Positions 4,938-24,680 of a stretch of 33,453 nt of DNA are shown one piece after another. Position 1 is the first letter of the stretch; each line of letters opens with the position of its first letter. Source of the stretch: Boseongicola sp. (GTDB lineage Bacteria > Pseudomonadota > Alphaproteobacteria > Rhodobacterales > Rhodobacteraceae). The stretch is from assembly GCA_028818055.1 (NCBI GenBank), contig JAPPOI010000230.1, positions 1 through 33,453 on the forward strand. The letters run 5' to 3'. The position numbers were made by a program, and so were the translations under genes. The notes beneath the pieces were generated by a model. It saw only the letters and a list, made by a program, of their open reading frames with translations. It was not told the origin of the DNA and made no database searches.

Positions 4938-4978
4938 CGCGCGGCGTCCGCGCCCAGGGAGGCGCGTTGGATGAAGAA

Positions 4979-5010
4979 AGGGGCGGCACTGACAAGTGCC
5001 GCCCCTCTTG
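4979..5010. terminator. Strong hairpin terminator between convergent genes
   Basis: A perfect twelve-base stem (aggggcggcact at 4979-4990, agtgccgcccct at 4995-5006) has the four-base loop gaca and is followed by a weak T tract. It lies between the outer-membrane protein gene (plus) and the SDR gene (minus) and can serve both. Part of the stem also pairs with 5029-5040 in an alternative hairpin. Confidence 0.8.
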
Positions 5011-8902: not shown

Positions 8903-9648
8903 ATCCAATCCTGCCAGGGCCCTTCCGGACGGAAGTAAGCAACGATGCGTGGTGGCCCATCACCTGCATTCCACGGCGCCATGCCATGGAGGCAATGACG
9001 ATGGATAAGCAGCGCTTCACCCGGTTCGGCTGGAAGTTCGACCCGGTCGCATTCGTTGAAACACCGATGCCGCGCTGAATGATATGCATCTGTCAGATCG
9101 ACTTCTGACCAATGCTCGGGCGCGACACCATCGAATGCTTTTGCAAAAGCGTCTCGCATGATCAGGTGGCTTTTCTCCCACACGACAAGCGGGCTTGCGT
9201 TTGACGGGTTGGAGGTCAGTGGAATGCCAAGAATATAGGCGTGCGGTTCTTTGAGCTTGCGTCTTCTATCAGCTCCCTCCGGCAACAGGCCATCGACATG
9301 GGCGGCGTCACGCTTGATGCGATACCGCGCCGCTGCTTCACTTTCGCCCTCAACTGGCTTCGGATAGCCGGGAAAAATCGCCGAAACTTGACCCGCATGT
9401 AACGGGATATCCGGCACGTGCGCCTTCAGGGTTTCCGGGTACTCGGGTCCTCCAGCTAGATGGCCAGTCTCATCATTGGGCAGGCAATCGACTCCGACAA
9501 ACCAAGTATCTTCGCAGCGATACCAATGACGGAGATCCGGCAGCAAGAGTATGTCATCGGCAACCGACTTGGCATGGTTTGCCCACTGAAGAACGTCATC
9601 AGAGCGCGGGATTTTGACCCAACCCAACGTGTCTAGCGAACCCTTCAT
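8899..9648 (-). CDS. Phytanoyl-CoA dioxygenase (PhyH)-like 2-oxoglutarate oxygenase
   Basis: This 249-residue protein has the layout of PhyH-family Fe(II)/2-oxoglutarate dioxygenases: a metal HxD motif in RDAAHVDGLLPEG near residue 117, a distal metal histidine in HRHCLHGMAPW near 220, and the 2-oxoglutarate-binding arginine in PPRIVAYFRPEGPW close to the C-terminus. The substrate is unknown. Its ATG overlaps the dusA stop codon by four bases, so the two are probably translationally coupled. Before integration of the neighbouring element it was likely the last gene of an MFS / NTF2-like / dusA / dioxygenase operon. It converges on the nitrile hydratase operon. Confidence 0.75.
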   Translation of the reverse strand: MKGSLDTLGWVKIPRSDDVLQWANHAKSVADDILLLPDLRHWYRCEDTWFVGVDCLPNDETGHLAGGPEYPETLKAHVPDIPLHAGQVSAIFPGYPKPVEGESEAAARYRIKRDAAHVDGLLPEGADRRRKLKEPHAYILGIPLTSNPSNASPLVVWEKSHLIMRDAFAKAFDGVAPEHWSEVDLTDAYHSARHRCFNECDRVELPAEPGEALLIHRHCLHGMAPWNAGDGPPRIVAYFRPEGPWQDWI

Positions 9649-10667
9649 GCCGCGTCCGCGCGGGGCACCTGAGCCAGAGCTTCTCGTATCAATTGAAAGT
9701 CGGCATCGGGTTGGGCAGCCCCTTCAGACAAGGTGCGCCGCCAAGCGCGCGCGCCGGGGCGTCCAGCAAAAAGGCCAAGCATGTGGCGCGTGATGCTGTG
9801 CAATCGCCCCCCTTCTGAAAGGTGGCGACCCACATAGTCCTCCATCGCTTCAGCGACATTATGAGGAAACTGAAACGGAGGCACAATTCCGAAGATCGCT
9901 GCATCGGCCTTACCGAGAATGTTCCATGGATTGTGATACGCGGCCCGCCCCAACATGGCACCGTCCAGACCTCGGCCCAGCGCATCCTGCGCCTCGGCAA
10001 GTGTTTCCAGCCCGCCGTTCAACGAAATGTGCAGATGCGGGAACATCTCTTTCATCCGATCGACCAATTCGTAGTCCAGCGGCGGAACCTCGCGGTTCTC
10101 TTTCGGGCTGAGACCTTGAAGCCATGCTTTCCGCGCGTGAATTGCAAAGCGCGTTACGCCAACGTCGCTGACCTTGGCCAGAAAGTCAGGCAACACCTCG
10201 CTTGGGTTCTGATCATCCACACCAATTCGGCATTTGACCGTCACCGGAACATCGACGGTCGCGCGCATTGCGGCGCAACACTCCGCCACCAAATCCGGTG
10301 TTTTCATCAAAACTGCGCCGAAAGTTCCCGATTGGACCCGATCGGACGGACACCCAACATTGAGATTGATTTCGTCATATCCTTCGGCCGCTCCCATTCT
10401 TGCCGCTTCGGCCAACTCATCAGGATCAGAGCCACCAAGTTGCAGTGCAACGGGATGTTCGGCCTGATCATAGCGCAGAAGATGACGCGCATTTCCCCGG
10501 ACCAAAGCCGGCGCGGTAACCATCTCTGTATAAAGCAGCGTCTGACGCGACATCAGCCGGTGAAAATACCGGCAATGTCTGTCCGTCCAATCCATCATAG
10601 GAGCTATAGATAGACGCGCAGCACGCGATACGCCTTGTTTTGTTGGCTTTTCTGTTGTTTCCGCCAT
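9645..10667 (-). CDS. dusA: tRNA-dihydrouridine(20/20a) synthase, 5' end replaced by the island
   Basis: This 340-residue flavoenzyme reduces uridine 20/20a in the D-loop of tRNA. Signatures are RLSIAPMMDWTDRHCRYF at the N-terminus (FMN-binding TIM barrel), the catalytic-cysteine motif NLNVGCPSDRVQSGTFGAVLM, and KCRIGVDD, all typical of DusA. The start is ATG 10667; a GTG at 10682 with an upstream acggaa stretch is an alternative. The first residues (MAETTEKPTKQGVSRA) are supplied by the integrated element. The original start, encoding MATLSVNEHARLSCAPMMD, survives at 24825 on the other side of the island. The coding region is therefore intact, but its promoter now belongs to the element. It is coupled to the downstream dioxygenase gene by an ATGA overlap. 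Confidence 0.95.
   Translation of the reverse strand: MAETTEKPTKQGVSRAARLSIAPMMDWTDRHCRYFHRLMSRQTLLYTEMVTAPALVRGNARHLLRYDQAEHPVALQLGGSDPDELAEAARMGAAEGYDEINLNVGCPSDRVQSGTFGAVLMKTPDLVAECCAAMRATVDVPVTVKCRIGVDDQNPSEVLPDFLAKVSDVGVTRFAIHARKAWLQGLSPKENREVPPLDYELVDRMKEMFPHLHISLNGGLETLAEAQDALGRGLDGAMLGRAAYHNPWNILGKADAAIFGIVPPFQFPHNVAEAMEDYVGRHLSEGGRLHSITRHMLGLFAGRPGARAWRRTLSEGAAQPDADFQLIREALAQVPRADAA
10586..10604 (-). other. Left attachment site inside dusA
   Basis: The minus-strand sequence gctcctatgatggattgga encodes APMMDW of DusA. It matches the right-end copy at 17 of 19 positions. Position 6 differs (T here, A at the right) and position 16 differs (T here, G at the right), which places strand exchange in the identical stretch atgatggat between them. 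Confidence 0.88.
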
Positions 10668-10726
10668 ATTTCTAACTGACACGATTCCGTATGATTTTGC
10701 CCTATTTCGGCCTGTTTTGACATATG

Positions 10727-10769: not shown

Positions 10770-11882
10770 ATGGCCACTTTCAGAGAACGTACATTGAAGA
10801 GCGGCAAAACCAGCGTGACGGCGCAGATTGTGCGACGAAACCCTGCATATCAGGAATCGAAGACCTTTGACAAACGCAAGACCGCCGAAGCATGGGCGAA
10901 GAAACGCGAGAGTGAGATTGACGCCGAGATTGCTGCCGGACGCACTCCCAAGAAGCGCAGTGAAATGCGTGTCACCCTTGGCGATGCCATAGACAAATAT
11001 GTGGACGAGTCCATGCGTGAGATTGGCGGGACCAAAGCTCAAGTCTTGCGGACCATTCGAAACGAATACCCAATCGCAGAAATGCGCTGCGACAGGATCA
11101 CAGCACCAGACATAGTAGCCTTCGCCCGCGAACTTCACCAGCGCCCCGGTGTTGGCTCACCCGCAACGGTTATGAACTACTTGTCGCACCTTTCCGCCGT
11201 CTTCACACACGCCCCTGCCCTCTGGGGCTTTCAACTGGACCGGCAGGCTATGGAAGACGCCATGATTGCTATCAAGCACGCTGGCATTGCGAAGCGCTCC
11301 GAAGAGCGTGACCGCCGCCCTACCCTCGCCGAACTTGATAAAATCATGGCGCACTTTGTCCGGGCCTCCGAACACGATCCGCGTTGTATTCCCATGCATC
11401 GGATCGTTGCTTTCGCGATTTTCAGCACCCGCCGTCAGGCGGAGATTTGTCGGATCACTTGGGAGGAATACGACCCCGACGCCAAGCGCGTTATGGTGCG
11501 TAAGATGAAGAACCCCGGCGATAAGGGCGGCAGAGATACGGTAGTGGAACTGCCAGACCCCTGCGCTTCGATCATAGCCGCAATGCCCCACAAGAAAGAT
11601 CGCATCTTCCCCTTCAATAGCGACACGGTAAGCCGCCGCTTCACCGAAGCTTGTGCGGTTCTGGGCATCGAAGACCTGCACTTCCATGATCTGCGCCATG
11701 AAGGGGCAAGCCGTTTGGCCGAGATTGGACGGACGGTTCCGCAGCTAATGGCTGTGACGGGGCACCGATCAATGGCAAGTCTGGACCGCTATACGCATGT
11801 TCGGCAAATCGGAGACAAATACGAAGGATGGAAGTGGCTGGATGTGGTCACCATGGCCAGTGACAGGCACGCGGTTTCTTAA
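10770..11882 (+). CDS. int: Tyrosine-type site-specific integrase
   Basis: This 370-residue phage-type integrase has an N-terminal arm-binding region, a SAM-like core-binding domain (about residues 65-165) and a C-terminal catalytic domain. Catalytic residues are visible: Arg222 in STRRQAEI, His306 and Arg309 in FHDLRHEGASRL, His332 in TGHRSMASLDRYTH, and the nucleophile Tyr341 in the same stretch. The position beside the 5' end of dusA and the duplicated dusA core imply that it recombines in dusA. The gene is transcribed away from dusA, inward into the island. The ATG at 10770 lies next to a cluster of gtatgactc repeats that could mediate autoregulation. Confidence 0.95.
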   Translation: MATFRERTLKSGKTSVTAQIVRRNPAYQESKTFDKRKTAEAWAKKRESEIDAEIAAGRTPKKRSEMRVTLGDAIDKYVDESMREIGGTKAQVLRTIRNEYPIAEMRCDRITAPDIVAFARELHQRPGVGSPATVMNYLSHLSAVFTHAPALWGFQLDRQAMEDAMIAIKHAGIAKRSEERDRRPTLAELDKIMAHFVRASEHDPRCIPMHRIVAFAIFSTRRQAEICRITWEEYDPDAKRVMVRKMKNPGDKGGRDTVVELPDPCASIIAAMPHKKDRIFPFNSDTVSRRFTEACAVLGIEDLHFHDLRHEGASRLAEIGRTVPQLMAVTGHRSMASLDRYTHVRQIGDKYEGWKWLDVVTMASDRHAVS

Positions 11883-14146: not shown

Positions 14147-14492
14147 CCTTCCCTTCGCCGTGCCTGCATCCATCCTGACGGACGAATGTTCGTCTGCCAG
14201 CTTGCCAATCGGGCCAGTTAGCGCCGCTGACGCGGCCCATCTGTTCACTGAGCACTATGACAGCGCAGCCGACTATTTCAGCGACGGGCGGTTTGTGCGC
14301 CGTATTGTCAGTATTGATGAGGCCCGCGTTAGCGGGCTGCGCTTTGCCTTCACTGGCGAGCGTTGTCCGCAGTGCGGTGCATACTCGGTGCGAAAGATGC
14401 GCGGCGGACGGCGCGGTTCGGAATGCACCCAATGTCTCAAACTACGCGAACAACGCCGCCGGGCACGGCGCGCGAATGAGGGTTTCAAATGA
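14136..14492 (+). CDS. Small zinc-ribbon protein
   Basis: This 118-residue protein has a C-terminal zinc ribbon: CPQCGAYSVRKMRGGRRG followed by CTQC (CxxC...CxxC, spacing about 17), then a highly basic tail (LREQRRRARRANEG), suggesting nucleic-acid contact. The N-terminal part (GPVSAADAAHLFTEHYDSAADYFSDGRFVRRI) is not recognised. The start is taken at ATG 14136 with GGGG six bases ahead; ATG 14124 is an alternative. Both overlap the upstream gene. The end overlaps the next gene by four bases (ATGA). It may be a small DNA-binding or transcription factor of the element. Confidence 0.6.
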   Translation: MKNSLPFAVPASILTDECSSASLPIGPVSAADAAHLFTEHYDSAADYFSDGRFVRRIVSIDEARVSGLRFAFTGERCPQCGAYSVRKMRGGRRGSECTQCLKLREQRRRARRANEGFK

Positions 14493-14836: not shown

Positions 14837-15009
14837 GCATGATTTTTCGTGATGTATCTCGGCATATCGGCAATCATCTGTTATATGTTTGCGCTCAATT
14901 CTGCGTCATTGATGCCCATTTCAGGCCAATCGCAGGCTCTAGGCAAGGTTGTGATCATTGTGGAAACTATAGCTTGCGCGAAAAAGCCTTGACAATCTCA
15001 AATCCACAA

Positions 15010-15037
15010 AAGTCACGCGACCGAGAGGTGGTGACTT
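15010..15037. repeat. Hairpin upstream of the three-way-junction element
   Basis: The arms aagtcac (15010-15016) and gtgactt (15031-15037) pair perfectly. An inner helix acc/ggt closes a gaga tetraloop (15020-15029). It stands 25 bases before the larger folded element and may be part of the same structure. Confidence 0.5.
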
Positions 15038-15062
15038 AGTGATTCGCATGTGATAAAAGAAA

Positions 15063-15120
15063 TGGACCTGTCAGCACCCCGGCAAGGGTGGTCTCACGGA
15101 GAAATGAGACGACAGGTCCA
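15063..15120. other. Candidate structured RNA or origin: perfect three-way junction
   Basis: The outer stem is tggacctgtc (15063-15072) with gacaggtcca (15111-15120), ten perfect pairs. It encloses hairpin one, caccc/gggtg with loop cggcaa (15075-15090), and immediately hairpin two, gtctca/tgagac with loop cggagaaa (15091-15110). Only two bases (15073-15074) are unpaired at the junction. So compact a fold is unlikely by chance. It starts 130 bases before the AAA+/replication-like gene, so a regulatory leader, a small RNA, or a recognition structure for that protein are the options. It matches no riboswitch or ribozyme consensus that I recognise. Confidence 0.6.
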
Positions 15121-15192
15121 GTAAATACAACACCCGGAACCTAATCTTTCGCAAAGAAAAAAGCAAGCGAAGTCGGTTCCCAAAATCGGAGA

Positions 15193-17628
15193 ATGACTCC
15201 CTTGAACGCACAAAATGAATCCGCTTTGGCGGACGGATCGGCATATGTCGGACCCAACGTCCTGTTGCTGTTTCCAGAATACCAAGATGACTACGCTGCC
15301 ATGCTGATGGCTGAGGCAAATCAGGAACTGGGGCAGCTTGCCCACAAGAAGAACGAAACCGCGTTCTGCAAGCATCAACGCCGCGCCGTTCCTAAAAGGG
15401 ATGCGCGCCAGAGCACAGTCGAAGACCTCATGTTCGGCGCAGCACTCGCCGAATACGAAGAGCTTCAATCCGAACTCGGAATTTCGGATGCCGAATACAT
15501 GGGTCAAACGTTCCTCGAATGCATCGAAGGCCCGTGCTGCGTCCGTGACAACTTTCTGAGCCGGACAAGCGCCCAGCTTGGCTACAGCGCGGAAAAAACC
15601 CGCAAGGCCTATGAGAAGGCAGCAAAACGCGTCACGGAAGCTCAAGTTGAGTGGGCGGTGCCCATCAAACCGAAGGCGACCAAGCCGAAAGATGACCGGC
15701 CTGCCGTCTTCCGGGCAATCGACAATCTGAAACTGCCTCGCCAAATCGGTCGGGATGACCTGTACCAGAAGGTCTTTGCTTTGGCGTCGAAGTATCCGCT
15801 TGCGGAAGAACCGGGGGCGCAACTCGCCCTCAAAGAGAAAATCGCGGCAGATGCAGGCTGGCCTAAAAAGGATGCTGAAAAGGTCATCAATGAGGCGAGC
15901 AAGAACGCCAAACCCGCGCCGAAGCGCAAGAAGGGCGGACGCCCTGTCTGCAACCTTGGCGACCTCGGTCACCGCGAGCGCGCTGATGGCGCTTACGAAG
16001 TCATGACGAACCAAGGCGACACCCCGCGCCGGTTCCAGAACGGCGGACGCCTGACCGAGGTGCGCGAAGACGAGACTGGCAACATTCGTATCGCCGCAAT
16101 CGACAAACCACGCTTCAAGGGCGCTCACATCGAAGAGGAAATTGATTTCATCACTATCATGCCAAAAGGCGGCGTGAAGAACGTTCCTGCGCCCGACGCG
16201 ATGGTGAATCGCGTATTCAACATGCCTCTGAAAGGCTATCCGCCGCTGTTTCGGATCACCGCCTTTCCGACCTATTCAGTGGAACTGTCGCTGGTAATGG
16301 ACCCCGGCTACCACAGCGGTAGCGGCCTCTATCACCAGCCGAAACGCGGCGTGACCATTCCGCCGGTGCCCGAGGTGCCTACATTCGAAGAAATGCGCGA
16401 AGCCCGCGATGAACTGGTAGACCTGTTTGCAGACCTGCCACTGGACGCGCGTACGCGCGCCGAGATCGAAGCTGCCGTTGAGAAAGGCGAAGAGGTTCCC
16501 AGTTTGGCTCATCTTCTGTCTGTGGCTCTTACGCCAATCATGCGCGATGCAATCGAAGGCCCGACACCTAACCACCTCGCCACCAAAGACAAACCCCGTA
16601 CCGGGGCGACTCTGTGTATGGGTGCTGCAAGTTGTATCGGCACACTGGAACCGGCTGCGCCTCAGTCTCTGCCGGAAAGCCGTTCGGAAGTACAGAAGAC
16701 CCTGACCGCGATCTTCGACTCCGGCGAACCATATGCCTTCTTCGATAACATCCCTGCGGGCGAAACAACGGAGTCTGATGAAATGGCGGGGGCAATCACC
16801 GCATACCCCGAGTACACCGGGCGGCGTCTGGGTGAAACGTCCATGGTCAAAGCGCGGGTGACGCAGACGTGGCTGACTACCGGCATTCGGACTCAGTTGT
16901 CAGAACAGCTTCGCGAACGGACGCTGTTGATCGAACTGGACCCGAAGATGGAACGCCCCGGTGAACGGCCCCCGTCAACGTTCAAGTACGTCCCGCTGAT
17001 CCCACACATTCAGGCCAATGCCGGGCGCTACATGCACGCGCTCTTGACGCTGGTGCAATACTGGAAGGCCAAAGACTGCCCGAAATGGGAAGGCACCGCG
17101 CTTGGAGGTTTCGAAGCTCATGCAAGTGTTATCGGCGGCATTCTCAACTGCTGCGGTATCCGTGGCTTCATGGGCAACCGCGACAAGTTGCGGGCGCGGA
17201 TGGAAGTATCTGACAGCCCGGAAACCGAACTTCTGGATGCAATGATCGAAGAGCACCACCGCAGGCCCACGCTGTTCCGGGTATGGAGTGCTGACGCACC
17301 GCCGGACAAGATCAAAAACGACGTGGGCGAAAAGGTACCCTTTGAATTCGCGAAACAGCGCGTCAAGTCTGTCCATGAGCTTCTGGAGCGCGAGCAAATC
17401 GCCATCAAAAAGTGGGGATACGATTACGAGGACGGCGACGTAATCTACCCGGAGAAGGCCAAGCCAAAAGTGACGTTTCACTTTGGTTCGATGGAGGGCA
17501 CGGTGCGCGAATGGCATGAAACCCAAACAGAAATCGAGCATCAACAAGGGCGGTATGTGCTGACTAAAGTGCATAAGGACAAGCATGGAACTCTGTACCG
17601 GCTGGAACATTTGCCGCTTATTGGGTGA
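15193..17628 (+). CDS. Large AAA+/replication-like protein with degenerate P-loop
   Basis: This is an 811-residue protein. The N-terminal half is charged and helical, with a basic linker KPAPKRKKGGRP near residue 247. The C-terminal half looks like the helicase/ATPase region of phage or plasmid primase-helicases. KDKPRTGATLCMGAA near residue 468 sits where Walker A would be but lacks GK[T/S]. IFDSGEPYAFFDNIP near 510 resembles Walker B. TWLTTGIRTQLSEQLRERTLLIELDP near 560 resembles the sensor/arginine-finger stretch of D5-like helicases. The ATPase may therefore be inactive or divergent. ATG 15193 is only two bases from its GGAG; TTG 15202 would have better spacing. A folded RNA or origin element lies upstream and iterons lie downstream, which supports a replication role. 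Confidence 0.65.
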   Translation: MTPLNAQNESALADGSAYVGPNVLLLFPEYQDDYAAMLMAEANQELGQLAHKKNETAFCKHQRRAVPKRDARQSTVEDLMFGAALAEYEELQSELGISDAEYMGQTFLECIEGPCCVRDNFLSRTSAQLGYSAEKTRKAYEKAAKRVTEAQVEWAVPIKPKATKPKDDRPAVFRAIDNLKLPRQIGRDDLYQKVFALASKYPLAEEPGAQLALKEKIAADAGWPKKDAEKVINEASKNAKPAPKRKKGGRPVCNLGDLGHRERADGAYEVMTNQGDTPRRFQNGGRLTEVREDETGNIRIAAIDKPRFKGAHIEEEIDFITIMPKGGVKNVPAPDAMVNRVFNMPLKGYPPLFRITAFPTYSVELSLVMDPGYHSGSGLYHQPKRGVTIPPVPEVPTFEEMREARDELVDLFADLPLDARTRAEIEAAVEKGEEVPSLAHLLSVALTPIMRDAIEGPTPNHLATKDKPRTGATLCMGAASCIGTLEPAAPQSLPESRSEVQKTLTAIFDSGEPYAFFDNIPAGETTESDEMAGAITAYPEYTGRRLGETSMVKARVTQTWLTTGIRTQLSEQLRERTLLIELDPKMERPGERPPSTFKYVPLIPHIQANAGRYMHALLTLVQYWKAKDCPKWEGTALGGFEAHASVIGGILNCCGIRGFMGNRDKLRARMEVSDSPETELLDAMIEEHHRRPTLFRVWSADAPPDKIKNDVGEKVPFEFAKQRVKSVHELLEREQIAIKKWGYDYEDGDVIYPEKAKPKVTFHFGSMEGTVREWHETQTEIEHQQGRYVLTKVHKDKHGTLYRLEHLPLIG

Positions 17629-17656: not shown

Positions 17657-17680
17657 AGGCCCGCGTCAGCGGGCCTTTTT
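17657..17680 (+). terminator. Rho-independent terminator of the replication-like gene
   Basis: The stem aggcccgc (17657-17664) / gcgggcct (17669-17676) has a gtca loop and is followed by a T tract to 17680. It starts 28 bases after the stop codon. The stem sequence is nearly identical to a palindrome inside the zinc-ribbon gene at 14317-14337. Confidence 0.88.
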
Positions 17681-17694
17681 CGTGTTTTGGTTGT

Positions 17695-18091
17695 GGTGCT
17701 AGGGTGGTGCCAGCCCGGTGCTAGGGTGGTGCCAGCCTATGACCCTAGCACCGAATTTTTCCATTTGTTCGAACTGTGCGAGCGGGCGCGGTGCCAGCCC
17801 GGTGCTAGGGTCGGACCCTAGCACCACCCTAGCACCGACCCTAGCATCGCAATTTTGTACGTGATTCCAATGCCCTAACCCCTTGCGGTGCTAGGGTAAG
17901 GGCGATGCTAGGGTATTTTCAGGTGAGAGCTTTCGGACTTTTTTTCGGCGGAATGGCTCATTTTCGGCGCATATCATGTTCCCAAGTGGAAGTTGGGAAC
18001 ATGATATGCACCTCTTCGCGGTCGCAAACGGTGAAAAAAAGATTCTCCTGTAGAGGGCCGCAGACCCTAGCACCGCACCGACCCTAGCACC
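17695..18091. repeat. Iteron-like array of eleven 11-bp repeats
   Basis: The unit ggtgctagggt occurs on the plus strand at 17695, 17717, 17801 and 17887, with a variant gatgctagggt at 17904. It occurs inverted at 17742, 17815, 17826, 18064 and 18081, with an inverted variant at 17838. The pair at 17801-17825 forms a perfect palindrome around cgg. The first two copies are part of a 22-base tandem repeat. The array directly follows the replication-like gene. Multiple copies of one short site in both orientations next to a replication gene fit an origin, or an operator cluster bound by an element protein. Spacing is irregular, so this is not a CRISPR array. Confidence 0.8.
17969..18009. repeat. 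17-bp perfect inverted repeat inside the iteron region
   Basis: The left arm is 17969-17985, beginning gcatatcatgttccc. The right arm is 17993-18009, beginning ttgggaacatgatat. All 17 positions pair, and the spacer is seven bases (gtggaag). It has no T tract and lies in AT-richer sequence between iteron clusters. Candidate roles are an origin hairpin, a recombinase or relaxase site, or a strong operator. Confidence 0.75.
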
Positions 18092-18195: not shown

Positions 18196-18810
18196 CTACT
18201 TGCCTTGGTTGCGCATCGCCTGCTTGGCTTCATACTTTTCCCAAACATGCATTCGCCCCTTCTGGCGCGCGTCCGCCAACCACAACTTCTTTCGCACGCC
18301 TTCCACCTCCAATGAGCGATACTTGCCACCAGAGAATTTTGGCCAGTCAATCGCCAACCCTTGCTTGACCATTTCCGCCGATAGATCACGGCCATCTTGC
18401 AGAAAGCACTTTGCGACTGTCCGACCGTGATCGTCCTTTGCGGTTATCTCTGCCCGGATCGTCTGACCTTTGCACAAGGCAACCAGCGCCCACTTCGCCT
18501 TCTTGCCGTAGGGATGGTTCATTTCCGGGGCATCTACGCCGAACAAGCGAATCTGGGTTTTGCGAATGACTATTGTGTCGCCGTCCACCACATATGCTGA
18601 ACCGCTCAAGACTGGGTGGCTTGGTTGTGGTTTGGCAGTCCCGGCGTCAAACGGAATAGGCTTCGTTATGGGGTGCCGCTGTTGTCTGGTCTGACGCGGC
18701 GGCGGGCTTGAATCCCTTCCTCGCGACACAAAAATCCAAATGGCAACACCCGCAAGCAGAACAAGTACGATTTCCAATACAACAGCGCCTTCAATTTCCT
18801 TCGTGCCCAC
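18196..18810 (-). CDS. Membrane-anchored thermonuclease-like protein (SNase fold)
   Basis: This 204-residue protein has one N-terminal membrane segment (VVLEIVLVLLAGVAIWIFV, about residues 10-28), a proline/glutamine-rich linker and a staphylococcal-nuclease-like OB domain (residues 68-200). Catalytic residues match the family: Arg88 and Glu96 in IRLFGVDAPE, Arg130 in DDHGRTVA, and the calcium-site VDGDTI. The active domain should face the periplasm. The start is GTG 18810. Such nucleases are frequent passengers of integrative elements and may degrade DNA or RNA outside the cytoplasm. It is the only gene of this island segment on the minus strand. Its far end approaches the iteron region. Confidence 0.88.
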   Translation of the reverse strand: MGTKEIEGAVVLEIVLVLLAGVAIWIFVSRGRDSSPPPRQTRQQRHPITKPIPFDAGTAKPQPSHPVLSGSAYVVDGDTIVIRKTQIRLFGVDAPEMNHPYGKKAKWALVALCKGQTIRAEITAKDDHGRTVAKCFLQDGRDLSAEMVKQGLAIDWPKFSGGKYRSLEVEGVRKKLWLADARQKGRMHVWEKYEAKQAMRNQGK

Positions 18811-19474: not shown

Positions 19475-20152
19475 ATGAGGCCGATCATGCCCGATACTGT
19501 CAAAAGATACGTGGTTTACTACCGCGTCAGCACCAAGAGCCAAGGCGAGTCCGGGTTGGGTCTTGCCGCTCAAGAGCGCGATATTGACCTCTTTTTGCAG
19601 AACTACAGCGACACGCCATATGAGGTGCTGGAAACGTTCACCGAAGTGCAAAGCGGCAAGAATGCGGATCGTCCAGTGTTGAAAGAAGCGCTGGCATTGG
19701 CCCGCAAGACTGGCGCTGAGCTTCTTGTGTCCAAGTTGGACCGCCTTAGCCGTCGCGTAAGCCAAGTCGCTGCATTGATGGAAGACAAGCAGCTTACAAT
19801 CCGAGTTGCATCTATGCCTCACGCTGACGCGTTCCAACTCCACGTTTACGCCGCATTGGCAGAGCAAGAGCGCCGCTTTATATCCCTGCGCACCAAACAG
19901 GCCTTGGCACGCTCTGACAAGCCGAAGGGCGGCCTTCGCCCCGGCACTAAGGCTCGCAATGAGGCCACTAAAGCCGCCGCTGACGCGGCTGCACAGAAGG
20001 TATCCAACATCATCGTTCCGATGCGCGAAAGCGGTTCGACTCTTCAACAGATCGCAGCGGCATTGAATGCCGCCGGGGTGCCCACGCCGCGCGGGCGGGA
20101 ATGGAAGCCAATGAGTGTGAAGAACGCTTTGACCCGGCTGGACGCCGCATGA
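19475..20152 (+). CDS. Serine recombinase (resolvase/invertase family)
   Basis: This 225-residue protein has the catalytic domain of small serine recombinases. The nucleophile is Ser19 in YYRVSTKSQGESGLGL; the arginine-containing LLVSKLDRLSRRVSQVA lies near residue 90, and AALAEQERRFISLRTKQAL near 130. The C-terminal part has a resolvase-associated helix-turn-helix (STLQQIAAALNAAGVPTPRGREWKPMSVKNAL). It probably resolves multimers or inverts/excises DNA within the element. The start is ATG 19475 with GAAGG six to ten bases ahead; ATG 19487 is also possible. A second recombinase besides the integrase suggests a plasmid-like stage or an older mobile unit. A tiny membrane-peptide frame overlaps its stop codon. 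Confidence 0.92.
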   Translation: MRPIMPDTVKRYVVYYRVSTKSQGESGLGLAAQERDIDLFLQNYSDTPYEVLETFTEVQSGKNADRPVLKEALALARKTGAELLVSKLDRLSRRVSQVAALMEDKQLTIRVASMPHADAFQLHVYAALAEQERRFISLRTKQALARSDKPKGGLRPGTKARNEATKAAADAAAQKVSNIIVPMRESGSTLQQIAAALNAAGVPTPRGREWKPMSVKNALTRLDAA

Positions 20153-20214: not shown

Positions 20215-20791
20215 CTACGGCGCGCTAACGCGCGTCAGCGCGCATCCATCATGCTACCAACCTACCACCCTACCAGCCCCGTACGCCCCGCTACGCGGGC
20301 GACAGGCAACCTTCAACCCAACAACCGAACCAACCCTCCAAGCCCGCTCAGTGACCGTCTGAGTGGGTCATAGGCTTTTCGGTATTGGCGGGTTGGTGAG
20401 TAGGTGGAGGCCCGCGTAGCGGGCAGATCGTTGGTAGGTTGGCGGTGTTTTGGTGACGCCTGAGCCGTCCCGGCGCGGGCGCGCCTTTAGGGGCGCTGTG
20501 CTGTCCGCTGAGCGCCCGTCCAGTCGCAAGCGGTCAAGGGCCGTGAAGGCGCTGTATGGCCCTCAGAAAGGCTTGGAGGGACCCTTAGCCCCACCGGGCT
20601 AGGGGTGCCCGGCGCGCCCAGTTGCTGTACGGGTGTGCCGAAGCAATTTGTTGCAGCGTTGCAAGGGACCCGGAGCGTATTCGCTGCGATACTTGCACCC
20701 CTTGCTGGGCATTCTGTAGATTCCGATTTTTCGGCCAGTGCTACACCCGTCGCTCACTTCGGCGCAACCGCAGCTTGTGGTATCATTGGGT
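20215..20791. other. GC-rich non-coding region full of inverted repeats
   Basis: No convincing gene lies in these 577 bases. Structures seen: nested gcgc palindromes (20219-20242); ccaacctacca (20257-20267), which pairs with tggtaggttgg (20432-20442); a stem cccgctcag/ctgagtggg with one G-U pair (20343-20367); a palindrome gaggcccgcgtagcgggc (20407-20424); and an eleven-pair stem acccttagccc/gggctaggggt (20581-20606). This density suggests an origin of transfer, a resolution site, or structured RNA, not ordinary spacer. Confidence 0.5.
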
Positions 20792-21092: not shown

Positions 21093-21773
21093 ATGGACGA
21101 ATTTGAACAAGAACCATTTGTGGACGCCGTATTACAAGAAAACCCTGAGCCAAGATGCCCAGTCTTACTTCTACTGGATACTTCCTATTCGATGAGCGGC
21201 GCGCCGATTTCTGAATTGAATGAAGGATTGGCGACACTACGTGAAGAATTGCTATCAGACTCGCTTGCCTCAAAGCGCGTCGAATTGGCGATGGTAACGT
21301 TTGGCCCTGTCGAAACGCGAAATGAATTTGCGACTGTTGATCATTTCTATCCAGAAACTCTGGAAGTTGGCGGAGCCACGCCAATGGGAGAAGCTATCGT
21401 TACCGGACTGGAAATGCTTCGCGCGAGAAAAGATCACATCCGGTCAAATGGCCTCAAGATATTCCGGCCTTGGGTGTTCCTCATCACTGACGGTGCCCCA
21501 ACTGATAGCTGGGACGAAGCAAAACGCCGCGTCCATGAGGGCGAAGAACGCAAAGAGTTCATGTTCTATGCCGTGGGTGTCGAACAGGCGGACATGGGTG
21601 TACTCGGGCAGATCGCAACACGCCAACCGCTCAAGCTCAAAGGGTTGGCCTTCAAAGAACTGTTCCAGTGGCTTTCCAGTTCGCTGAGCGCTGTTTCGCA
21701 ATCTAACCCCGGCGATCCGGGCGTCGCGCTCGCAAACCCCACCGCCCCAGACGGCTGGGCTGTAGCGGAATAA
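21093..21773 (+). CDS. terY: TerY-like von Willebrand factor A protein
   Basis: This 226-residue cytoplasmic vWA-domain protein has a complete metal-ion-dependent adhesion site: DTSYSMSG (Asp29, Ser31, Ser33), Thr96 in GGATPMG and Asp133 in LITDGAPTD. These features and the overall sequence match the TerY family. In the TerY-P triad the vWA protein is encoded with a PP2C phosphatase and a Ser/Thr kinase and is thought to serve as the scaffold or phosphorylation target. The ribosome site GAGGGG stands ten bases before the ATG. The phosphatase gene begins four bases after the stop. Expression as one operon is strongly implied. No other ter genes (terB, C, D, Z) are in the window. Confidence 0.9.
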
Positions 21774-21777
21774 CCCA

Positions 21778-22524
21778 ATGGATTGGCGGTGGGCGGCTGC
21801 GTCACAAGTCGGCACGTCCCATATTCGGAATGGTGATAGGTTGCAGGACGCCTATGCCGTTTCGGTGATGCGGGGCGATTGTGTTTTTGCCATTGTTTCA
21901 GATGGTGCTGGAAGTGCGGAATTTGGCGCATTCGGGGCATGGCTTGTCTGCCGTACGTTGAAAGTGTTCTTTCGCGATTGGTTCCGTGAAAATTCAGACC
22001 TTCCCAACGACGAATTGCTTGCAGTTTGGATTGATGAAGTTCGGGACAGAATTGCCGCTATCGCAAAAATGCGAGATAGAGCACCCCGCCAATTCGCCTC
22101 CACTTTGGCGGCAGTTGTTTCAACACCAGACGAAACCTTAACTTTGCATATCGGCGACAGTGCTGTTGTTGGACGGCGCAACGAAGATTGGGACGTTCTT
22201 TGCTGGCCTGAAAATGGTGAATACGCGTCCACGACATACTTTGTGACCGATGATCCTGAACCCCGTCTCAATATCGCGCGCTACGCGCGCGAGCATGACG
22301 CCTTCGCCTTGTTTTCTGACGGGATTGGCGACCTAGCACTTTCGCACAAAGACCAAACGGCATCGCCCCAGTTCTTCAACCCCATGCTGCGCCCCGTGGA
22401 CAATGCGTCGGACGCCGGACGGTTGCCTGAGTTGTCGGCGAAGCTGCGCACTTATCTTGCCGGTCCTGCGATTTGTGAACGAACCGATGATGACAAGACG
22501 CTCATCCTTATTTCTGGGGGCTGA
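21778..22524 (+). CDS. PP2C-family Ser/Thr phosphatase of the TerY-P triad
   Basis: This 248-residue phosphatase has the PP2C metal-site motifs: the N-terminal GTSHIRNGDRLQDAYAV, Asp42-Gly43 in VSDGAGSAEFGAFGA, Asp127 in HIGDSAVV, Asp181 in FSDGIGDLAL, and Asp239 in DDDKTLIL. All expected acidic metal ligands appear to be present, so it should be active and remove phosphates placed by the neighbouring kinase. It has no membrane segment. It lies between the vWA gene (four-base gap) and the kinase gene (two-base gap), the standard order vWA, PP2C, kinase. Its substrates in such triads are not established, but the vWA partner is the obvious candidate. Confidence 0.92.
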   Translation: MDWRWAAASQVGTSHIRNGDRLQDAYAVSVMRGDCVFAIVSDGAGSAEFGAFGAWLVCRTLKVFFRDWFRENSDLPNDELLAVWIDEVRDRIAAIAKMRDRAPRQFASTLAAVVSTPDETLTLHIGDSAVVGRRNEDWDVLCWPENGEYASTTYFVTDDPEPRLNIARYAREHDAFALFSDGIGDLALSHKDQTASPQFFNPMLRPVDNASDAGRLPELSAKLRTYLAGPAICERTDDDKTLILISGG

Positions 22525-22526
22525 AC

Positions 22527-24680
22527 GTGCAAGAGATCGTTATCGGGAAAGACCGTGTTTCCGTCGCCAACCTGATTGGCAAGGGCGGCGAAGGTGAAGT
22601 CTATGCGATCAAGGGGCGCTCTGGGCAGGCGGTAAAAATCTACAACGCCAACCTGCGCTCAAAGCGCGAAAGCAAAGTGCGTGCGATGGTGGGCGAAGGT
22701 CTTGCCGTCAAGACAGACCTAATAGCCTACCCCGGTGAAGTGGTCACAGATCAACGCGGCAACTTTCTTGGTTTTGTTATGCGGCTTGTTTCGGGCTATC
22801 GCCCGCTTCACGAGCTATACAGCCCGAAATCACGAATGCGCCATTTTCCAAAGGCGGACTATCGGTTTCTAATACATGCGGCGATAAACGTGGCCCGTGC
22901 CGTTGGTACATTTCACCAAACGGGATGTGTGATTGGTGATTTGAATCATTCCGGCATTCTTGTCGCGCCCGATGCTACTGTTGCGTTGATTGATGCTGAC
23001 AGTTTTCAGTTTCACCTGAATGGCACGTCATACCCCTGTGTTGTTGGTGTGCCTGACTTCACCCCACCAGAACTGCACGGCAAAAACCTAGCGTCGGTTG
23101 AGCGTACGATTGCGCACGATAACTTTGGCTTGGCGGTCGCGATCTTCCATTTGCTCTTTATGGGAAAACACCCATACGCTGGAATCCGTAAAGGTCCCGA
23201 AACGTCAATGGGCGAAGACATTGCCCAAAATCGGTTCGCCTATTCGCAGTTGCGGCAAGCTCAAACTCAGACCAAGCCGCCGCCCGGCGCTTTAACATTG
23301 GACCTGTTTCCGGCCCCGTTTTCCAAGACGTTCGAAGACGCATTCGGACTGTCAGCAGGCGCGCGTCCTAGCGCGCTGGACTGGATACATGCCCTATCGA
23401 AGCTGGAAGGCTCGTTAAGCCGCTGTAGCAAGGTCAAGACACACTATTACCCCAGCGCTGCCAAAGGCTGCGTTTGGTGCAAGTTGACGGCAAAAAGCGG
23501 TCTGGACATGTTCCCGGACCTATCGGCGGTTACCCCAAATATCCCGACCGATGCGAAGGGCACCGAACAAGCCATTCGCGAGATATTGGCGTTCCGTTTC
23601 CCGACCGTTGGTGACTTGCTCCCTGCGGTTTCGGTTCGGAGCACCAGCCCGGCCCTTACCGAAGCCAAGAGTGGGAAACGAGGGCGCGCACTTCTAGGCT
23701 TACTCATGATGGGCGGCGCGGTCGCAGGGTTCATATACGCCGCGCCGGTATTCTACATCTGGATTGGGTTGGCGATTTGGGGTTGGTCTACATTCAATGA
23801 CCGGGAGGTCCCATCCAGCCCATTTGTTCAAACCTACAAAGACGCCGATGAAAAGGTGCAGCGCGAGTTGAACGCATTCGTTCAGCGCAACGGGTTGACT
23901 GAGGTTGTGAAGGTGCGCGGCGATTTGGACGCCGCAATCGCCGCCTACAAGGGCCATGACGATGCGCTTGCCCGTGAGGTGATGATACTCAAATCCAACC
24001 GAGAGTCGCGTCAGAGACAGGCCTATCTTGACCGTTTCTCAGTACGACGCGCGAACATTTCCGGTATCGGCCCGGCGAAGACAGCAACTTTGATTTCCTT
24101 TGGCATAGAAACCGCAGGCGATGTTAACCGCTCAGCCGTCTTGCGAGTTCCCGGCTTTGGCGACGTGATGACCGGCAAGCTGGTGGCATGGCGTCGCAGT
24201 CACGAGTCGCGGTTCAAGTATGATAGAACACCAAACGCTCAGGATGTAGCCGACGAAAGGGCGTTGCGTGGGCGGTTCGCCGCTGAGAAGGCCAAACTGG
24301 AATCAACGATCCGCAACGGGTTGGGGACTCTTCGCAACGCACGCGCAAAGCTCGACTCGTTGCCCGCCCGTGCGAAGAGTGACCGGGCACTCTCTGAGGC
24401 GCTGAACGCAAGGGCACAGGCCGAACGTGATTTGAAAGAACTGGGGGCCTCTGTCCCGGCGTCTACAGTGGCCTTGACGGTGACAGCGCCACCGCGCCCT
24501 GTCCCGCAACCGCCAAAGGCACCACGCGTTGCTGCTCCGCCGCCGAGGCAAAAGGCAGGAGTTTCCGGCAACCCAAGCTGCCCACGTTGCGGGTCCGCTA
24601 TGCGGCGGCGCTCAGGTCGCTACGGGCAATTCTGGGGCTGTTCGCGGTATCCACGCTGTAAGGGTACTCGAAACATCTAA
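22527..24680 (+). CDS. Ser/Thr kinase with HHH and topoisomerase-type zinc finger
   Basis: This 717-residue protein is the third gene of the triad, with GTG start at 22527. Kinase domain: glycine loop GKGGEGEVY (18-26), Lys37 in AVKIY, catalytic Asp138 in VIGDLNHSGILV, and LIDADSFQF (155-162). The residue five after the catalytic Asp is Gly143 where classical kinases have Asn; this may be normal in this subfamily. A Cys/His cluster (about 305-325, with CVWC) and two membrane-like segments (about 388-425) follow. Then come a coiled coil, a helix-hairpin-helix (ISGIGPAKTATL, about 511), a second coiled coil, and a C-terminal zinc finger (Cys685, 688, 705, 711) as in topoisomerase I. The tail implies nucleic-acid sensing coupled to phosphorylation. 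Confidence 0.92.
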   Translation: MQEIVIGKDRVSVANLIGKGGEGEVYAIKGRSGQAVKIYNANLRSKRESKVRAMVGEGLAVKTDLIAYPGEVVTDQRGNFLGFVMRLVSGYRPLHELYSPKSRMRHFPKADYRFLIHAAINVARAVGTFHQTGCVIGDLNHSGILVAPDATVALIDADSFQFHLNGTSYPCVVGVPDFTPPELHGKNLASVERTIAHDNFGLAVAIFHLLFMGKHPYAGIRKGPETSMGEDIAQNRFAYSQLRQAQTQTKPPPGALTLDLFPAPFSKTFEDAFGLSAGARPSALDWIHALSKLEGSLSRCSKVKTHYYPSAAKGCVWCKLTAKSGLDMFPDLSAVTPNIPTDAKGTEQAIREILAFRFPTVGDLLPAVSVRSTSPALTEAKSGKRGRALLGLLMMGGAVAGFIYAAPVFYIWIGLAIWGWSTFNDREVPSSPFVQTYKDADEKVQRELNAFVQRNGLTEVVKVRGDLDAAIAAYKGHDDALAREVMILKSNRESRQRQAYLDRFSVRRANISGIGPAKTATLISFGIETAGDVNRSAVLRVPGFGDVMTGKLVAWRRSHESRFKYDRTPNAQDVADERALRGRFAAEKAKLESTIRNGLGTLRNARAKLDSLPARAKSDRALSEALNARAQAERDLKELGASVPASTVALTVTAPPRPVPQPPKAPRVAAPPPRQKAGVSGNPSCPRCGSAMRRRSGRYGQFWGCSRYPRCKGTRNI

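Follow-up and report, generated by a model that had tools for sequence, protein, structure and literature searches.

The Island and Its Replication Gene

The window (the whole 33,453-nt stretch of Boseongicola sp. DNA analyzed here) carries an integrated island next to dusA, arranged as an integrase, small genes, a replication gene (rep), and a repeat array beside it (Table 1); an excisionase/PrtN-like gene is also present. Both the integrase beside dusA and this gene are as in published dusA-associated islands (PMC4482086). A search for att repeats returned solely one 11-bp exact match, CCTATTTCGGC at 10701 and 19193, which is weak as an att site.

Table 1. Coordinates of features at the rep locus and its surroundings
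Feature	Coordinates	Strand	Remarks
dusA	9645-10682	-	neighbor of island integrase
Tyrosine integrase of island	10770-11882	+	adjoins 5' end of dusA
Upstream hairpin	15010-15037	.	-12.4 kcal/mol, z -4.0; outside predicted antisense RNA
Candidate rep promoter GTGACT-17-TAAAAG (weak)	15031-15059	+	score 7.1
Predicted antisense (counter-transcribed) RNA, ~75-77 nt; 5' tail of 11 nt, then the three-way junction and the U-tract	15055-15131	-	inferred from terminator and promoter
U-tract UUUCUUUU, directly after closing stem	15055-15062 (read 15062-15055)	-	sequence
Three-way junction, including 3' part of terminator	15063-15120	-	folding and pairing check
Apical loop UUCUCC, complementary to rep Shine-Dalgarno	15098-15103	-
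Candidate antisense promoter TTGCTT-17-TAGGTT (weak)	15138-15166	-	score 8.5; 20% of shuffles reach it
CGGAGAA, rep Shine-Dalgarno region, candidate antisense-loop target	15187-15193	+	in-frame starts ATG 15193, TTG 15202
Replication protein (rep), 811 aa	15193-17628	+	no Pfam family; core fold like D5-type helicases and SaPI PriRep1
Origin-like array of GGTGCTAGGGT, 11 copies facing both ways (9 perfect, 2 carrying a single mismatch)	17695-18091	.	directly downstream of rep
Long inverted repeat within iteron region	17966-18012	.

The 811-aa Rep protein matched no Pfam family. Among its relatives are proteins from large alphaproteobacterial phages and a small number from plasmids, along with PHROG families that include one annotated as DNA polymerase/primase. 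We built an AlphaFold model with 10 relatives that is confident over about residues 250-670. The model matches AsfvPrimPol, D5-type helicases, and PriRep1 (7pds), a staphylococcal island protein, at E values of about 1e-4 to 1e-7 and with modest TM-scores (0.2-0.5). By its modeled fold, rep encodes a D5/PriRep1-like replicative helicase. The array behind it has the appearance of an iteron-type origin, and GGTGCTAGGGT was found nowhere else in the window at up to one mismatch. Many Rep relatives also carry repeat arrays directly downstream of rep, and in many of them the repeats at that place are different ones.

Several other features of the window were recorded. Right after the array, 18196-18810 (minus strand) encodes a protein like staphylococcal nuclease whose N-terminal segment is hydrophobic, and toward the right side of the island, 19475-20152 encodes a serine recombinase (resolvase) that possibly belongs to a separate element. 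A VWA protein, a PP2C phosphatase, and a protein kinase follow one another at 21093-24680; the kinase is a weak match to PADLOC PD-T4-6 and the phosphatase to PDC-M21C, and the row is possibly cargo or a defense/stress system. The palindrome GGCCCGCGT(T/C)AGCGGGC occurs twice in the window (14320-14337 and 17657-17674) and also upstream of rep in the related locus L161. Strong folds occur at 4946-4980 and at 20560-20620, the latter a very stable hairpin around 20581-20612 whose 60-nt fold reaches about -41 kcal/mol.

A Folded Element with a Leftward Terminator

Between the small-gene operon and rep lies a gap from 14837 to 15192, the same 356 bases given in an earlier note on this DNA. That note had read a three-way junction here: a ten-pair closing stem around two adjacent hairpins with only two unpaired junction bases. 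Pairing and folding bear it out. The closing stem consists of ten perfect pairs (15063-15072 with 15111-15120) and encloses the hairpins CACCC/GGGTG and GTCTCA/TGAGAC (8-nt loop). On the plus strand, the junction has a minimum free energy of -31.8 kcal/mol (z -4.85), and none of 200 shuffles was equally stable. When 60-nt stretches across the window were ranked, 30 of 13358 were at least as stable, which places the junction among the top folds of the window and not at the very top. The hairpin upstream of the junction, another of the note's proposals, likewise stands out from its shuffles; it overlaps the -35 element of the candidate rep promoter.

The note had recognized no riboswitch or ribozyme class in the fold, and the Rfam check it proposed agrees. 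Rfam 15 gave no gathering-score match over the window and no family even at E values up to 10 over 14837-15230; no riboswitch, ribozyme, C4, or plasmid ctRNA family matched the element. A nucleotide search with the gap against plasmids, phages, and 395 genomes of the family found no homologue; one 22-nt match came up in genome G238. Three other leads were discarded. The exact closing-stem pattern returned scattered palindromes that lack the same inner hairpins from genomes and viral contigs; a 16-nt loop pattern matched unrelated sequence in viral contigs; and a 20-codon sense ORF across the structure (ATG 15062 to TAA 15122-15124) is a stop-free run of a length that is common, and no matching ORF was seen in the leader of L157, the closest relative.

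What the note missed is the opposite strand. The minus-strand junction folds at least as well as the plus (-33.9 kcal/mol, z -5.8 to -6.8), and its G+C-rich stem runs at once into the U-rich tract, as in an intrinsic terminator, whereas no T-run follows the stem on the plus strand. We first took the stem to begin the sense mRNA and gave this up in view of the T-runs on the opposite strand. To the right of the structure, there is no evident minus-strand gene to account for a leftward terminator, and rep itself reads rightward. A short leftward RNA starting between the structure and rep is the simplest reading, and the fold would most likely form its end, just ahead of rep. The candidate antisense promoter would place the start near 15131 and give an RNA of about 75 nt.

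A sense-strand account draws on the same stability. A structured leader of the rep mRNA, starting at the foot of the stem, could protect the 5' end or gate translation with no antisense RNA involved, and the candidate rep promoter does put the window's start at the stem. However, this leaves both the minus-strand U-tract and the enrichment of leftward terminators in relatives (see below) unexplained, and plus-strand promoters at this place score weakly in the window, while in relatives another site is mostly better. We consider a leader of this kind unlikely as the sole explanation. The two could nonetheless both hold, since the leader would be the antisense RNA's partner. Of what the earlier note had offered, a small RNA and control of rep both find support, though on the other strand and through another mechanism; a sense-strand leader switch is the poorer reading of the structure.

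Recurrence in Iteron-Bearing Relatives

We collected relatives from 395 genomes of the family, 391 genomes of the order, and IMG/VR using the Rep protein or its alignment as the query; the protein alone found nothing in genome or viral contigs, but the alignment did. We applied a fixed criterion, a strong hairpin with at least five T in eight within 330 nt upstream of rep, taking the first ATG/GTG as the start codon, which is surely wrong for some loci. Of 20 loci with at least five downstream repeats (the window included), 14 have a strong leftward terminator. The same feature precedes 100 of 906 other ORFs in these loci (11%; Fisher p 1.8e-9) and rep in 7 of 50 relatives with two or fewer copies of any downstream 9-mer (p 1e-5), both p values being somewhat optimistic because the window is among the 20 and the idea was formed beforehand on five loci (the window, L157, L160, L162, and L163), four of them within the set. 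Rightward terminators upstream of rep showed no enrichment (3 of 20 iteron-bearing loci). Two of the 14 positives, L166 and L167, are poor multibranched folds, and the iteron-bearing relatives L168, L215, L218, and L269 have no such terminator. A short palindrome (GGCTTGAAGCC / CAGCTTGAAGCTG) that could be an operator or a terminator is common to L162, L166, and L168, where it lies upstream of rep near the end of the upstream gene.

Candidate leftward promoters recur with the terminators. In 10 of the 19 candidates scored, the -10 element of a site of the form TTGnnn-17-TAnnnT stops 18-25 nt short of the hairpin, as in L274 (TTGAAA-17-TATAAT), L160 (TTGCGC-17-TATACT), and L157 (TTGAAT-17-TATCAA). 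The promoter sites score far better than shuffles in L274, L160, L185, L280, and L273 and do not in L161, L163, and L275. The RNAs predicted in relatives would be 51-117 nt long. The hairpin lies 59-85 nt from rep in 8 of the 16 loci measured; in the others, it is further off or the start codon is uncertain. L273 and L274 are a related pair with a homologous RNA in which the base of the stem is conserved and, by eye, the changes are one-sided or pair-breaking, with no clear compensatory change. A search for more copies of this RNA returned those two loci and unrelated sequence.

The earlier note had also suggested a DNA structure used in replication, which would make the element a single-strand initiation site or a second origin element. 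A strong palindrome adjoining a replication gene is what such a structure would look like. However, no iterons occur upstream, the repeat array sitting downstream of rep instead, and a U-tract with recurring leftward promoters is what characterizes an RNA gene. We give this proposal hardly any credence.

Predicted Pairing with the rep Start

The apical loop of the minus-strand junction and its flank can form 7 bp with the Shine-Dalgarno region of rep. The GGAG there lies one base from the listed ATG, normally too close, and suits the in-frame TTG. About 1% of control windows or shuffles pair as well with the start region as the loop does (p about 0.01), and in a more conservative test of the whole RNA, the window's pairing is not significant (p 0.12). 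In L157, whose Rep is 52% identical, the loop forms 12 bp (including one G-U) with GGACUAAAUAGU at the Shine-Dalgarno and start of rep, a pairing matched by none of 478 control windows and none of 400 shuffles. The loop of L163 pairs over 9 bp at -14 to -6 of rep, and in the related pair L273 and L274, it is the 5' tail of the RNA, and not the loop, that forms 9-11 bp, directly ahead of the rep start. Whole-RNA tests gave p values of 0.002 (L157), 0.02 (L163), 0.015 (L273), and 0.004 (L274); the other five loci gave nothing significant. L160, L162, L182, L185, and L275 showed no convincing pairing with the rep start. Combined, the tests yield p 9e-5, or 1.4e-3 when L274 (one of the two related loci) is left out, values that support pairing without proving it, since it was seen first in some of the tested loci. 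Of all kinds of pairing, moreover, that with a Shine-Dalgarno is the least specific; a loop carrying an anti-Shine-Dalgarno sequence would match many genes.

These results bear on whether the terminator makes a functional RNA at all. It might simply stop stray antisense transcription, as the weakness of the window's antisense promoter and the lack of significance of its rep-start pairing, taken alone, would allow. Such a plain terminator would not explain why the RNAs of L157, L163, L273, and L274 are complementary to the rep start, or why several relatives have good promoters at a constant spacing, and we regard it as improbable.

A Model for Control of rep

We propose that the junction probably serves a leftward antisense RNA of ~75 nt as its structured body and intrinsic terminator, and that this RNA represses rep translation in a copy-number-type control. 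Its promoter would lie between the structure and the start codon of rep, and its sequence would be complementary to the leader of the rep mRNA. Its exposed UUCUCC loop could in addition pair with the Shine-Dalgarno of rep, some 90 nt beyond, the most likely effect being less translation of rep. A leader-complementary antisense RNA that in several members also matches the rep ribosome-binding site has the layout of plasmid counter-transcribed RNAs. Repression of this kind would amount to copy-number-type control of an island that may excise and replicate from the iteron array downstream of rep.

More tentatively, the family may harbor widespread integrated satellite-like islands carrying a plasmid-style replicon (a D5-like Rep and an iteron origin), with Rep held down by fast-diverging antisense RNAs that bear an anti-Shine-Dalgarno loop or tail; the RNAs would set copy number and govern island coexistence and superinfection. 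We see this as possible and somewhat doubtful. If the proposed control is real, antisense copy control would reach beyond plasmids, to integrative islands whose replication uses a D5-like helicase. A single short RNA for each island would offer a simple genetic handle on replication timing and on exclusion between related islands, and an unannotated RNA would be named in islands so far examined for proteins only.

Comparison with Known Systems

The CI RNA of P4 and the C4 RNAs of P1/P7 are short structured RNAs that hold down a downstream operon, which in P4 includes the replication gene alpha, by antisense pairing, and they arise by processing of RNA from their target's own strand. The window's element likewise lies ahead of a satellite-type replication gene, forms a three-way junction as C4 RNAs do, and is predicted to act by antisense pairing. 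A true counterpart would be a stable RNA processed from rep's own transcript that pairs with the nearby leader and ends transcription early. However, Rfam gave no match, C4 included, and the terminator with its U-tract and the anti-ribosome-binding-site sequence are on the opposite strand, the plus strand carrying a copy of the site and not its complement. A C4-like RNA is very improbable here.

The island as a whole resembles satellite islands such as SaPIs (rep/PriRep1 and iterons) and P4 (alpha and iterons) in having an integrase, small genes, a D5/PriRep1-like helicase, and adjacent repeats; it differs in that its Rep belongs to no Pfam sequence family. To our knowledge, antisense control of rep of the plasmid kind has not been described for satellite islands, and a literature search for such control on islands of this type returned nothing specific.

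There is also a close likeness to the repABC/repC plasmids of alphaproteobacteria, where expression of repC is reduced, and incompatibility caused, by a 55-59-nt RNA transcribed from the opposite strand immediately ahead of the gene (PMC10194956). As in p42d and pRmeGR4a, the RNA predicted here would be antisense and lie just upstream of the initiator gene. The plasmid RNAs end in a terminator hairpin; the RNA predicted here would be 75-77 nt long and form a three-way junction, and the element has no Rfam match. In p42d, the leader folds into a terminator upon antisense pairing (PMC3155836), whereas no sense-strand terminator is visible here and the loop could pair with the Shine-Dalgarno directly. 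RepC plasmids have their origin inside repC and no iterons (PMC3155836); the window's initiator is instead D5-like by fold, is followed by an iteron array, and belongs to an island integrated at dusA. By analogy, the predicted RNA would work like the plasmid counter-transcribed RNAs without being a member of their group, as the Rfam result, the different initiator, the iterons, and the island setting indicate.
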